Origin: Crossiella sp. SN42
GTDB taxonomy: Bacteria; Actinomycetota; Actinomycetes; Mycobacteriales; Pseudonocardiaceae
Assembly: GCF_023897065.1 (NCBI RefSeq)
Contig: NZ_JAMHIV010000025.1
Span: 62,001 to 126,000 of the forward strand
Length of the DNA stretch: 64,000 nucleotides
Direction of reading: 5' to 3'
In this document: piece by piece, positions 6,474 through 10,119 of the stretch
Layout: every line of letters begins with the position of its first letter
Position numbering within the stretch: position 1 is the first letter of the stretch
Notes under the pieces: model-generated
Database searches by the model: none
What the model saw: the letters and a program-made list of their open reading frames with translations, nothing else
What the model was told of the DNA's origin: nothing
Translations under genes and position numbers: made by a program

Positions 6474-7655
6474 ATGAGTGCGAGGGACTGGATCGAGAAG
6501 GACTTCTACGCCGAGCTGGGTGTCCCTCCCGAGGCGCCCGGTGACGACATCAAGAAGGCCTACCGCAAGCTCGCCCGCGAGCTGCACCCGGACGCCAACC
6601 CGGGTGATGCCAAGGCGGAGGCCAGGTTCAAGGCCGTCTCCGAGGCCTACGGGGTGCTCTCCGACACCGAGAAGCGCAAGCAGTACGACGAGGCGCGCAG
6701 GCTGTTCGGCTCCGGCGGGTTCCGGCCGGCCGGTGGTGGCGGGTTCGGCGGCGGCTCCGGCGGCTTCGACTTCGGCGACCTGTTCGGCGGCGCGGCCAGT
6801 GGCGCCGCGGCCAGTGGCTCCGGCGGCATCGGCGACCTGCTCGGCGGCCTGTTCGGCCGTCGCGGCGGGCAGGCCAGCGCGGCCCGCGCCCAGCGCGGCA
6901 AGGACGTGGAGACCGAGGTCCGGATCGACTTCACCGAGGCCGTCCGGGGAGCCACCGTGTCGCTGCGCCTGTCCAGCCCGGCCACCTGTGGCACCTGCGG
7001 CGGCAACGGCGCGCGTCCCGGCACTTCGCCGCGGACCTGCCCGACCTGCGCGGGCGCCGGGGTGGTCAGCCGCAGCCAGGGCGCCTTCGCCTTCAGCGAG
7101 CCCTGCCGCGACTGCCGCGGCGTCGGGCGGATCGTCGACGACCCGTGCGTGGAGTGCGGCGGCGACGGGGTCAGCACCCGCACCCGCTCGCTCACCGTGC
7201 GGATCCCGGCCGGGGTGGACGACGGCCAGCGCATCCGGCTGGCCGGCCAGGGCGAGCCCGGCCGCAACGGCGCGCCGGCGGGCGACCTGTTCGTCCGGGT
7301 GCACGTGGCCCCGCACGAGCTGTTCGGGCGCAACGGCGACGACATCACCGTGACCATCCCGTGCAGCTTCCCGGAACTGGTGCTGGGCACCACGTTGACC
7401 GTGCCCACGCTGGAGGGCAAGGTGTCAGTACGGGTGCCGCCAGGCACCACGAGCGGCCGCACGCTTCGTGTGCGCGGCAAGGGCGTCGCCCGCAAGGACG
7501 GCACGTTCGGCGACCTGCTGGTCACCCTGCAGGTGGCTGTTCCGTCCACTGTGGACGAACAGGCCCGCGCCGCACTGGAGGCCTACGCCGCGGCAACAGC
7601 GGATTTCGACCCACGACCGGCGCTGACCGCACTGTTGGGACGGGATGAGCCATGA
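6474..7655 (+). CDS. dnaJ: Co-chaperone DnaJ
   Basis: 393 residues with a complete type I layout. The J domain (about 8-75) has HPD at 38-40. A Gly/Phe-rich linker (about 80-145) precedes four zinc-finger CxxCxGxG repeats (CGTCGGNG, CPTCAGAG, CRDCRGVG, CVECGGDG), then the C-terminal substrate domains. ATG 6474 follows AAGGGAGGGG. DnaJ delivers clients to DnaK and stimulates its ATPase. A central palindrome GTCCACTGTGGAC sits in the coding sequence at 7544 and uses the rare codon ACT. Confidence 0.98.
   Translation: MSARDWIEKDFYAELGVPPEAPGDDIKKAYRKLARELHPDANPGDAKAEARFKAVSEAYGVLSDTEKRKQYDEARRLFGSGGFRPAGGGGFGGGSGGFDFGDLFGGAASGAAASGSGGIGDLLGGLFGRRGGQASAARAQRGKDVETEVRIDFTEAVRGATVSLRLSSPATCGTCGGNGARPGTSPRTCPTCAGAGVVSRSQGAFAFSEPCRDCRGVGRIVDDPCVECGGDGVSTRTRSLTVRIPAGVDDGQRIRLAGQGEPGRNGAPAGDLFVRVHVAPHELFGRNGDDITVTIPCSFPELVLGTTLTVPTLEGKVSVRVPPGTTSGRTLRVRGKGVARKDGTFGDLLVTLQVAVPSTVDEQARAALEAYAAATADFDPRPALTALLGRDEP
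7544..7556. repeat. Recurring palindrome GTCCA-N3-TGGAC (copy in dnaJ)
   Basis: GTCCACTGTGGAC, inside dnaJ, encoding Ser-Thr-Val-Asp with the rare Thr codon ACT. Further copies are at 25168, 43568 and 55944. Confidence 0.6.
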
Positions 7656-8104
7656 GCCAGTTCGGTGACCAGGGTGGCGGGATCCCCTTCCCGCCCGGCG
7701 CGACCGAGGACAGCCCGGTGTTCGTGATCTCGGTCGCGGCCCAGCTCTCCGGCCTGCACGCGCAGACCCTGCGCACCTATGACCGGCTTGGCCTGGTGTC
7801 CCCCGGCCGCACCGCGGGCGGGGGCCGCCGGTACTCCGCGCGGGACATCGCGCTGCTCAAGGAAGTCCAGCGCCTGTCCCAGGAGGAAGGCGTCAACCTG
7901 GCGGGCATCAAGCGGATCATCGAGCTAGCCACCGAGGCCGAACGCCTCCGCACCGAGGTCGAGGACCTGCACCGCCAGCTCGCCGCCGCCCACGCCGCCG
8001 CCGACCACGCGGCTGCCGCCGTACACGCCTCCTACCGCCGAGACCTGGTCCCCCTCCGCCCCCAGCAAACCGCCCTGGTCGTCTGGAAACCCCAGCCCCG
8101 CTAG
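7652..8104 (+). CDS. hspR: Heat-shock repressor HspR (MerR family)
   Basis: 150 residues. ATG 7652 overlaps the dnaJ stop by 4 nt. A MerR-type winged helix occupies about residues 25-95 (FVISVAAQLSGLHAQTLRTYDRLGL, then GGRRYSARDI) and is followed by a coiled coil (AERLRTEVEDLHRQLAAAHAAAD). The C-terminal tail ends WKPQPR. HspR represses its own operon by binding HAIR sites with DnaK as co-repressor (established in Streptomyces). Three HAIR sites in the window, two before dnaK and one before clpB, are its expected targets. Confidence 0.96.
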   Translation: MSQFGDQGGGIPFPPGATEDSPVFVISVAAQLSGLHAQTLRTYDRLGLVSPGRTAGGGRRYSARDIALLKEVQRLSQEEGVNLAGIKRIIELATEAERLRTEVEDLHRQLAAAHAAADHAAAAVHASYRRDLVPLRPQQTALVVWKPQPR

Positions 8105-8116
8105 CGCCCCGCGAGT

Positions 8117-8350
8117 GTGGGCCGAACCCGCACGCGGAGTTGGCCAGCGCGCGAGGAGCGCCGGCCGCTCCAGGAGCGCGCGTTGGCCGAATTCGTATGC
8201 CGGGCTGGCTGATCCGGGCCGCATGTGGCCGAGGCCGTACCCGGTGTCGGTCGATCCCGGGCCGAGTGTTGGCCGAAGCCGTGCCCCGGGTTGGCCGGTC
8301 CCGGACCGCGCGCTGGCCGAACTCATCCCCCGCATTGACCGCTCCCACCC
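8117..8350. repeat. Degenerate ~22-bp tandem repeat tract between hspR and metG
   Basis: This intergenic stretch holds a degenerate unit of about 22 bp beginning TTGGCCGA. GGCCGA-type cores fall at 8120, 8185, 8227, 8271 and 8315 (spacings 65, 42, 44, 44, i.e. close to 3, 2, 2 and 2 units), with GGCTGA/GGTCGA/GGCCGG half-unit cores between them. Alternate units end in CCGG-like and GGGCCG-like strings, giving a 44-bp higher-order period. Open frames here are short and repetitive with no ribosome site, so I read it as non-coding. Function unknown. Confidence 0.7.
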
Positions 8351-8441
8351 GCCCCGCTACCGCCCGCCCGGCGGCACCGCGCCCGCAGCCGACCAAGCCC
8401 GCCACCTCGATACTCCGTGCGGCTGACCTGCGCCCCGGGTG

Positions 8442-8447
8442 TACCCT
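8442..8447 (+). promoter_or_regulatory. -10 element of a leaderless promoter for the metG leader peptide
   Basis: TACCCT (TAnnnT) ends 6 nt before ATG 8454, so transcription should begin at or next to the ATG. No Shine-Dalgarno sequence is present, consistent with a leaderless message. Confidence 0.6.
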
Positions 8448-8453
8448 GCTCCC

Positions 8454-8528
8454 ATGCTGAGGACGTGCGACAGCATGACCATGCGCGGCCGGATGATGAT
8501 GTTCTCCGGCCTCCTCCGCATGTCCTGA
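8454..8528 (+). CDS. Methionine-rich leader peptide upstream of metG (24 aa)
   Basis: A 24-codon frame with 7 methionines (positions 1, 8, 10, 14, 15, 16, 23), including three consecutive ATG codons at 8493-8501. It ends 76 nt before the start of methionyl-tRNA synthetase. It lacks a ribosome-binding site but sits 6 nt after a TAnnnT element, the standard layout of actinobacterial leaderless genes. A run of the cognate amino acid's codon before an aminoacyl-tRNA synthetase gene is the hallmark of ribosome-mediated attenuation. Its coding end also carries one strand of an alternative RNA stem (8508-8516). The attenuation role is inference; composition and structure are directly visible. Confidence 0.7.
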   Translation: MLRTCDSMTMRGRMMMFSGLLRMS

Positions 8529-8588
8529 CCACTGCTGAGGAGGCCCCCCAACCGGCGGCCCCTCACCGGGCCGACACCATCCGCCCGG
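8508..8588 (+). promoter_or_regulatory. Predicted trp-type attenuator controlling metG
   Basis: Four mutually exclusive segments can be read. Segment 1, GGCCTCCTC (8508-8516, inside the leader), is perfectly complementary to segment 2, GAGGAGGCC (8537-8545). Segment 2 also pairs with segment 3, GGCCCCTC (8557-8564), as 8 G-C/A-T pairs with one bulged A. Segment 3 pairs with segment 4 as CGGCCC/GGGCCG (8556-8561 with 8568-8573). A further stem, CCGGGC/GCCCGG (8566-8571 with 8583-8588), ends 4 nt before the metG ribosome site. A ribosome stalled on the Met triplet would cover segment 1, favouring 2:3 and preventing 3:4. No U-run follows, so control could act on termination or on translation initiation. 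Confidence 0.6.
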
Positions 8589-8604
8589 GGCCAGGAAGGT
8601 AGCG

Positions 8605-10119
8605 ATGAGCCGCTACAACGTCATGACATCCATCCCGTACGTCAACGGCAAGCCGCACGTCGGCCACGCCCTGGAGCTGATCCAGGCCGACGTGCTGGCC
8701 CGGCACCGGCGGCAGCGCGGGGACGAGGTGCGCGCGCAGACCGGCACCGATGACAACGCCTTGAAGAACGTGCAGGCGGCCGAGGTCGAGGGGATCACGC
8801 CCGCGGAGTACGTGGAGCGGGTCGCGCAGAACTTCCTCAAGCTGGGTGAGGCGCTGGAGCTGTCCTTCGACGACTTCATCAAGACCAGCTCCGACCCGCG
8901 GCACAAGCCGGGTGTGGACAAGCTGTGGGAGCTCTGCGCGAAGCAGGGCGACTTCTACCGCAAGTCCTACACCGGCCTGTACTGCATCGGCTGCGAGCTG
9001 TTCTACACCGAGGCCGAGCTGGTCGAGGGCAAGTGCCCCGAGCACGGCACGGTGCCGGAGGAGATCGAGGAGAACAACTGGTTCTTCCGGCTCTCCCGCT
9101 ACCAGGACAAGCTCATCGAGCTGATCTCCACCGACCAGCTGCGGGTCGAGCCCGCGCACCGCAAGCGCGAGGTGCTGGCCTTCATCTCCTCCGGGCTGGA
9201 GGACTTCAGCTGCTCGCGCAGCATGGCGCGGGCCCGCGGCTGGGGCATCCCGGTGCCCGGCGACCCCGAGCAGGTCATCTACGTCTGGTTCGACGCGCTG
9301 GCCAACTACATCACCGCGCCCGGCTTCGGCAGCGACGAGGCGGGCTACCGGCACTGGTGGTCCGAGGACGTCGAGCAGGTGCACGTGATCGGCAAGGGCA
9401 TCATCCGCTTCCACGCGGTGTACTGGCCCGCGATGCTGCTCTCCGCCGGGCTGCCGCTGCCGTCCACCATCTTCGTGCACGAGTACCTGACCGCGGGCGG
9501 GCAGAAGATCAGCAAGTCGCTGGGCAACGCCGAGGACCCGGCCGACATCGTGGCCGCCTACGGCAGTGACGCGGTGCGCTGGTGGATGCTGCGCGATGTG
9601 GCCAGGGCGGGCGACACCGACTACACCGCCGAGCGGATGATCACCCGGTCCAACGAGGACCTGGCCAACAACATGGGCAACCTGGTCAACCGCGCGGTGT
9701 CCATGGTGCGCAAGTACCGCGACGGCGTGATCCCGCCGGTGGCGGCGGAGAACCCGGCCGCCGAGGCGCTGCGGGCCGCCCGCGCGGAGGCCGCCGCGAC
9801 CATCGACGAGGCGCTGGCGAACTTCGACTTCCGCCGCGCGGTGGAGTCGATCAGCCGGATCGGCGACGAGGCCAACCGCTACGTCGAGGCCACCACCCCG
9901 TGGGCGCTGGCCAAGGCGGAGAAGAAGGAGGACGCGCCGCCTGCCGCGCTGGACGCGGTGCTGGCCGAGCTGGTGGCCACCGTGCGCGACCTGGCCGAGC
10001 ACCTGCTCCCGTTCCTGCCCGCCGCGGCCGCGCGGATCGCGCAGCAAGTGGGCGACGGCGGCGACACCGTGGCCGAGCCCAAGCCGGTGTTCCCGCGGCT
10101 GGAACTGGCCGCGGAATAG
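8605..10119 (+). CDS. metG: Methionine--tRNA ligase (MetRS)
   Basis: 504 residues, the short bacterial form without the C-terminal tRNA-binding/dimerisation extension. The class I signatures are present: the HIGH equivalent HVGH at 18-21 and KISKS at 301-305. The zinc-knuckle region reads CIGCELFYTEAELVEGKCPEHG, a single reduced metal site. ATG 8605 is preceded by AGGAAGG. It charges tRNA-Met for initiation and elongation. It stands alone between the leader/attenuator and a bidirectional terminator, so its expression probably depends on the leader. Confidence 0.97.
   Translation: MSRYNVMTSIPYVNGKPHVGHALELIQADVLARHRRQRGDEVRAQTGTDDNALKNVQAAEVEGITPAEYVERVAQNFLKLGEALELSFDDFIKTSSDPRHKPGVDKLWELCAKQGDFYRKSYTGLYCIGCELFYTEAELVEGKCPEHGTVPEEIEENNWFFRLSRYQDKLIELISTDQLRVEPAHRKREVLAFISSGLEDFSCSRSMARARGWGIPVPGDPEQVIYVWFDALANYITAPGFGSDEAGYRHWWSEDVEQVHVIGKGIIRFHAVYWPAMLLSAGLPLPSTIFVHEYLTAGGQKISKSLGNAEDPADIVAAYGSDAVRWWMLRDVARAGDTDYTAERMITRSNEDLANNMGNLVNRAVSMVRKYRDGVIPPVAAENPAAEALRAARAEAAATIDEALANFDFRRAVESISRIGDEANRYVEATTPWALAKAEKKEDAPPAALDAVLAELVATVRDLAEHLLPFLPAAAARIAQQVGDGGDTVAEPKPVFPRLELAAE

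Follow-up and report, generated by a model that had tools for sequence, protein, structure and literature searches.

A methionine-rich leader before metG in Crossiella sp. SN42 that probably acts as a ribosome-mediated attenuator

Results

A Met-rich reading frame precedes metG

The window, by which we mean the whole 64,000-nt stretch of Crossiella sp. SN42 DNA analysed here, holds a methionyl-tRNA synthetase (MetRS) gene, metG, preceded by a short Met-rich reading frame (Table 1). The MetG product scores 445.6 bits against TIGR00398 (cut-off 336.35), and the other three MetRS hits in the 9.7-Mb genome are stretches of 56-194 residues with 25-44% identity, within frames of 857-1,247 aa. Among solved structures, the Crossiella enzyme is nearest to 2csx, 4dlp and 6ax8, with 4qrd slightly more distant, and the MetRS of a family relative (L021) is nearest to 1rqg, 5gl7 and E. 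coli-like entries; by our own reading, 2csx-like enzymes are type 1 and 1rqg-like enzymes type 2. Directly upstream on the same strand lie dnaJ and hspR (6474-8104), which resemble the end of a heat-shock operon, and degenerate direct repeats at 8112-8352 (GTTGGCCGAA..CCGT..), some of them spaced 22 nt, occupy the space from hspR to the metG promoter.

Table 1. Features of the metG leader region in the window
Feature	Position	Strand	Remarks
-10 promoter hexamer TACCCT (TANNNT)	8442..8447	+	6 nt to leader ATG
Leader peptide ORF	8454..8528	+	24 codons, 7 Met; ATG 8454, TGA 8526-8528; translation MLRTCDSMTMRGRMMMFSGLLRMS
Leader Met codons	8454, 8475, 8481, 8493, 8496, 8499, 8520
Segment 1, GGCCGGA	8487..8493	+	Protector strand; pairs with 8505-8511
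Met triplet, ATGATGATG	8493..8501	+	Main proposed stall site; Met cluster kept in relatives
Segment 2, TCCGGCCTCCTC	8505..8516	+	Codons S-G-L-L; pairs with segment 1 or segment 3
Segment 3, GAGGAGGCC	8537..8545	+	Pairs with segment 2 (proposed ON) or segment 4 (proposed OFF)
Segment 4, GGCGGCCCCTCA	8554..8565	+	Closes hairpin 8536-8565 (-17.4 kcal/mol), the proposed OFF hairpin
Shine-Dalgarno (SD) of metG, AGGAAGG	8593..8599	+	Read from sequence
metG, methionyl-tRNA synthetase	8605..10119	+	504 aa; sole full-length MetRS match in genome

An earlier sequence-only reading of this DNA had pointed to the 24-codon frame with seven Met codons, three of them consecutive, ending 76 nt before the metG ATG at 8605, and this is confirmed. 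Dinucleotide shuffling of the upstream 320 nt, repeated 20,000 times, never produced seven ATG codons within one ORF of at most 45 codons, and produced six twice. The leaderless promoter that it had suspected is likewise supported: a TANNNT hexamer stands 5-8 nt before the in-frame leader start in 85 of 92 leaders against 74 of 1,840 shuffled ones, and with the -10 box where it is in the window the transcript is probably leaderless. The 163-nt leader block matches its counterparts in three Crossiella relatives at 100, 99.4 and 87.6% identity, and the initial 300 nt of metG match theirs at 94.3, 93.0 and 90.0%, such that in the third relative (L007) the leader block is slightly less conserved than metG. 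The 200 nt preceding the block reach 54.2, 55.7 and 49.8% in the same relatives, and since shuffled sequence gives 51.7%, this stretch is at the level of random identity and is not conserved. Two of the checks suggested in that reading were carried out. Folding of the RNA at 8454-8604 gave z = -2.8, with 3 of 200 shuffles equally stable, and comparison with relatives found Met codons and stems kept, with some compensatory changes.

A leader model searched against the whole genome returned a single match, at metG, and against 100 genomes of the family it returned eight: four Crossiella, three members of genus g22 and one further locus, L256. Two of the g22 loci share the window's layout and have an open metG frame behind it: L253, and L254, whose Met codons are spaced. 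At L256 (genome G983) a leader-like Met-rich stretch is seen and no metG lies within the fetched 1.8 kb; it is possibly an orphan leader.

The leader accompanies one subclass of MetRS

We pooled 131 metG loci, of which 118 were non-redundant and which included distant relatives of several phyla, many without a leader. A short ORF containing ATG-ATG lies upstream in 78 of these 118 regions, against 83 of 5,900 shuffles (1.4%). Ordinary MetRS copies, represented by 35 hand-chosen controls of which 14 come from genomes also holding a leader-bearing copy, have such an ORF in no case, and in one under a looser rule (L179, a Met-rich frame). In a class-wide draw, 34 of 296 genomes hold the subclass, with 56-69% identity to one of its Streptomyces members (the next match has 43%), and all 34 carry a leader: 29 of the ATG-ATG kind and five Met-poorer ones in the same place, the latter judged by eye (L141 with spaced Met codons; L132, L138, L142 and L146 with one internal Met). 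We conclude that the Met leader before this subclass of metG is real and general.

A quick tree of 119 MetRS sequences was also made, with the caveats that it has long branches, that some labels were given by eye and that a few are off (L058 filed as Met-poor though ATG-ATG, L141 filed as having none though its leader is Met-rich, L009 put in group C). It contains a strongly supported set of 92 rows, actinobacterial where named, and in 87 of them a leader was recognized, either from the sequence or by eye; the five without are three Kutzneria and two other Pseudonocardiaceae (L010 and L046). In a neighbouring set of six (support 91), five have Met leaders of other sequence. Met-rich leaders of unrelated sequence also stand before related metG genes in two alphaproteobacteria (L101 and L102), in an Anaerolineae member (L089) and at L231, in all four with U-run intrinsic terminators plain by eye.

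Competing helices in the layout of the window

Four RNA segments can be placed in and behind the leader frame; these helices, like the frame, the promoter box and their conservation, can be read from the sequence itself. The first hairpin, CCGGA...UCCGG, encloses the Met codons, with the Met triplet in its loop except for the first base. Further on, UCCGGCCU.. in the codons for S-G-L pairs with ..AGGCC past the stop codon, and the same ..AGGCC can alternatively pair with a further strand. Crossiella, Frankia, Actinorugispora, genus g87 and a few others carry this layout. The nine perfect pairs between GGCCTCCTC (8508-8516) and GAGGAGGCC (8537-8545) described in the sequence-only reading are present, and its notion of mutually exclusive helices holds, the helices by sequence and the choice between them by model. 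Its segment assignment was off by one: the 1:2 helix of that scheme corresponds to the antiterminator and its 2:3 helix to the OFF hairpin, and the true protector, 8487-8493 with 8505-8511, was missing from its segments. The layout becomes sensible if the segments are reassigned in this way.

Support for the three helices differs among 22 hand-picked, mostly non-redundant rows of this layout (L014 left out). In hairpin 1:2, each of the five inner pairs forms in 21 or 22 rows, against 4 and 18 rows for the two outermost pairs; a single pair is changed on both sides (G-C to C-G, in L037 only) and the remainder hardly varies, so that the support is constancy rather than covariation. For helix 3:4, compared in 15 distinct rows of the 22, a sequence's own arms gave -18.3 against -14.1 (s.d. 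0.7) for arms swapped between relatives, and none of 500 swaps was as low. For helix 2:3, five of the nine pairs are invariant and 10 cells are changed on both sides, as many as in none of 500 shuffles; two of five measures are not above shuffles (339 and 493 of 500 as high), a one-base slide of one strand scores alike (0.172 vs 0.166), and the swap test gave -12.9 for own and -12.1 (s.d. 0.38) for swapped arms, some swaps being lower, which amounts to little covariation. The distance from the stop codon's first base to the 5' arm of the OFF hairpin is 9-16 nt in all 22 rows. No U-tract follows helix 3:4 in the window, where CCGGGCCGAC comes after 8565, and the 10 nt behind it hold a mean of 0.9 T in the window's group (n = 16). 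Because this U-run is missing, the element cannot be filed as a classical transcription attenuator there.

A second layout in Streptomyces and others

Streptomyces, Actinomadura, Micromonospora, Nonomuraea and others have another layout, for which we used 57 of the 78 ATG-ATG leaders, excluding those of the window's layout, L014, L041, L110, L089 and L102. In 49 of the 57, the start of a first hairpin (GCCCCG/CGGGGC or similar) coincides with the end of ATGATG; in the other eight the program took a longer or displaced first hairpin, and these were kept in the counts. Downstream follow GAGGCCCC/GGGGCCUC or a similar hairpin, often U's, and then the SD. In 14 of 49 leaders the stop codon falls inside the first hairpin and the end of the peptide is lost, which suggests that the RNA rather than the peptide is kept. 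With n = 57 throughout, own arms outdid swapped arms for 1:2 (-11.1 vs -9.15, s.d. 0.18) and for 3:4 (-19.2 vs -15.2, s.d. 0.28), and for 2:3 they did not (-8.98 vs -9.29), with no covariation. The 10 nt after 3:4 hold 3.49 T against 1.61 expected, with at least four T in 31 of 57 leaders, and intrinsic termination is plausible where U's follow.

The layouts can be set beside the number of MetRS genes. A family-model search of 15 chosen genomes found two MetRS in 11 and one in four, namely Frankia (G356), Actinorugispora (G361), a Pseudonocardiales MAG (G365) and a Micromonosporaceae MAG (G360), a count affected by the possible incompleteness of the two MAGs; fifteen genomes of family f32 from the class-wide draw likewise show two. 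The window's layout coincides with a sole MetRS in G000, G356, G361 and G365, which are few independent cases. One exception is G360, with one match and the other layout. The other is G024, with the window's layout and two matches: its leader is retained (L014/L255), the metG behind the leader is broken, and a second MetRS lies elsewhere in the genome. Relatives with a second MetRS appear to use the other layout with the same logic, the OFF hairpin often being followed by U's.

Modelled ribosome positions

Which helix each ribosome position favours is a matter of modelling, in which the leading edge was placed 12 nt beyond the first base of the codon in the A site, an assumed footprint value rather than Crossiella data. 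With its A site on the first or second Met of the triplet, the modelled ribosome has its leading edge near 8505 or 8508, so that 8508-8516 stays wholly or almost wholly uncovered. Stalls at Met 10 and at the first and second Met of the triplet give Crossiella a modelled probability of 3:4 of 0.00, 0.00 and 0.02, and in these stalls the leader pairs with segment 3 at 0.62-0.73; the probability of 3:4 is 0.38 for a stall at Met 8, 0.62 at the third Met of the triplet, 0.63 with the ribosome at the stop codon (0.88 with an edge 3 nt shorter) and 0.88 with no ribosome. The last value led us to reject, for Crossiella, the idea that the window's layout is ON when no ribosome is present.

Strong equilibrium switching was modelled in six of the 22 relatives with the window's layout (three Crossiella, L041, L211 and L212). 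Of 11 Frankia rows, five hold 3:4 at 0.93-0.98 in Met stalls, and in six the program picked another hairpin. Among 59 other loci, moving the ribosome from the stop codon to the first-Met stall lowered 3:4 by over 0.3 in six, with the reverse in one. Most relatives thus show no equilibrium switch and would need kinetic capture. When the transcript is modelled before synthesis of segment 4, pairing of segment 3 with the leader is higher in a stall than at the stop codon in 22 of 22 leaders of the window's layout and in 52 of 57 of the other; the zero pairing at the stop codon follows from the masking rule. Under this condition, the medians in the window's layout are 0.86 for a stall, 0.62 for no ribosome and 0 at the stop codon, the stall exceeding no ribosome by 0.2 in 13 of 22 and never being lower by that amount; the corresponding medians in the other layout are 0.69, 0.58 and 0, with a stall higher by 0.2 in 21 of 57 and the reverse in nine. 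In the model, the placement of the mutually exclusive helices gives a stalled ribosome a different helix from a terminating one.

Discussion

We propose, with a probability of roughly three in four, that the metG leader is a ribosome-mediated attenuator that senses charged elongator Met-tRNA by a trp-like logic, with the segments corrected as above. Transcription would begin at the leader AUG. When charged Met-tRNA is scarce, the leader ribosome would stall at a Met codon, cover segment 1 and open hairpin 1:2; segment 2, which lies within the leader ORF past the Met cluster, could then capture segment 3, 3:4 would be blocked and metG would be expressed. When Met-tRNA is ample, the ribosome would reach the stop codon and cover segment 2, 3:4 would form, and expression would drop. 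The direct sensing of Met-tRNA charging suggested in the sequence-only reading is supported as the likely logic. Stalling and the direction of control are parts that we infer, as is the way in which 3:4 would cut expression in the window, be it termination without a U-tract, Rho or some other way. A further point counts against the mechanism: a shortage of Met also starves initiation at the leader, which the Crossiella model reads as OFF.

It would be tempting to extend this proposal to a broader one, which we put forward only tentatively. A widespread attenuator may make a type-1-like MetRS inducible by lost Met-tRNA charging, in many carriers arming a second, divergent MetRS that is induced once the main enzyme is poisoned or lacks Met; in Crossiella, Frankia and comparable lineages, the copy under this control might have ended as the sole MetRS, its switch retained and its layout rewired. 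Since the leader, too, is initiated with Met-tRNA, a bell-shaped response would be expected, on in moderate and off in severe shortage.

A variant of the attenuator, somewhat improbable and still the strongest competitor, holds that the switch is mainly translational, hiding or freeing the metG SD rather than ending transcription. The window, which has no U-tract, would suit it, and so would the other layout, where the median modelled cost of opening the SD is 10.7 with the ribosome at the stop codon and 7.9 in the first-Met stall, the cost at the stop being higher by more than 0.5 in 45 of 59 and the reverse holding in eight. In Crossiella the modelled cost falls from 9.9 with no ribosome to 7.7 with a stall at the first or second Met of the triplet, but the SD is most open with the ribosome at the stop codon (4.6), and across the window's group the cost without a ribosome is above the stalled mean in seven of 22 and below it in 12. 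Several relatives moreover have plain intrinsic terminators. A single SD-hiding outcome shared by both layouts was rejected, the trend being present in the other layout and absent in the window's layout.

The original segment assignment, in which GGCCTCCTC is the protector, 8536-8565 the antiterminator and an SD-adjacent 3:4 helix the OFF state, seems unlikely. As drawn, this scheme would turn metG on when Met is plentiful. Its helices do exist, and strong helices ending by the SD are predicted in Crossiella and Frankia. Its claim that a pause on the triplet blocks GGCCTCCTC survives in the model for the third Met, whose stall leaves hairpin 8536-8565 at a probability of 0.62, and fails for the first and second, whose stalls free GGCCTCCTC and remove that hairpin; the hairpin forms best with the ribosome at the stop codon or absent. 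With the hairpin's 5' arm starting 9-16 nt beyond the stop codon's first base, a terminating ribosome would hide GGCC and no more than a few bases at the hairpin's start. The SD-adjacent helix fares less well than proposed, as SD access is not consistently better in the ON state of that scheme and shows no consistent modelled effect in 22 relatives of the same layout.

We hold it more doubtful still that the leader peptide itself is active, through nascent-chain arrest or as a small protein, with RMMM-SGLLR as a peptide motif. A peptide near RMMM.SGL.R is conserved in the window's group, but the codons for SGLL double as one strand of two helices, other layouts encode different peptides (MMPRxRGC, MMAP, MMRP..GVR) with Met codons as the common feature, and the stop codons that lie within a hairpin in the other layout speak against it as well. 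Finally, short ORFs are common in GC-rich DNA and many occur in this window, but chance, or an ordinary upstream ORF without regulation, can hardly explain a frame that no shuffle matched, its frequency among metG loci compared with shuffles and control genes, and the promoter box and conserved block that go with it.

If the attenuator reading is true, methionine, the initiating amino acid, would join the leader-peptide attenuators that act on a synthetase. This would bear on how failed Met charging can be sensed when initiation suffers too, and on why many actinobacteria retain a second MetRS. The natural variants are numerous enough to test the same logic built from different segments.

Among the papers listed by our full-text searches, none showed a Met leader before MetRS; the survey of Lopatovskaya et al. 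2010 (Mol Biol 44:128) may contain one. In the parts of these sources covered here, the main text of PMC2965389 has no 'methionyl', 'metG' or 'metS', and PMC4833913 has no 'methion'. Of the other elements that sense tRNA charging before synthetase genes, T-box leaders (RF00230) are alike in that role, but the sensor here would be the translating ribosome. In the window, no Rfam match attains the gathering score of its family, T-box and SAM riboswitches included, nor does any at the loci of 16 relatives, and two weak matches near the leader are unrelated. In a Thermomicrobiales MAG (L078, 2691-2948), a T-box match before metG (E = 4.3e-17; 77.4 bits, gathering score 93) stands where relatives have Met leaders. 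The auxiliary, indolmycin-resistant TrpRS of S. coelicolor is reportedly under ribosome-mediated attenuation, as Vecchione and Sello are said to have described in 2010. That system resembles ours in having a second, inducible synthetase behind a leader with cognate codons; here the amino acid is Met, and in the window's genome the enzyme is the sole MetRS found.

The nearest known systems are the leader attenuators of actinobacterial synthetases. Those before trpS and leuS were described in Streptomyces in 2005, in a study which, in the part covered here, reported no conserved structures for methionine operons (PMC1262725), and alaL and thrL, before alaS and thrS, have been proposed for S. lividans along with metL before metNIQ (PMC8079986). 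The synthetase leaders of S. lividans are, from the same parts of these two sources, mostly leaderless (PMC1262725, PMC8079986). MetL is alike in being a leaderless, Met-containing leader before a Met-related gene, with no typical Rho-independent terminator, but it precedes an importer operon and not MetRS, its sequence MSTTSDRTPATEATTTPGARCMCRRMCAF has no tandem Met, and the part of the source covered here gives neither a segment model nor conservation for it (PMC8079986). With the synthetase attenuators, the metG leader shares a short ORF rich in codons for the amino acid handled downstream and competing or terminator-like hairpins; it differs in that the amino acid is Met, that the Met triplet sits inside the protector loop, and that the OFF hairpin of the window lacks the U-run of the intrinsic terminator found in the classical trp type. 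Thus, we suggest that a Met-tRNA-sensing leader before MetRS probably works like the trp attenuator, with methionine as the amino acid sensed.
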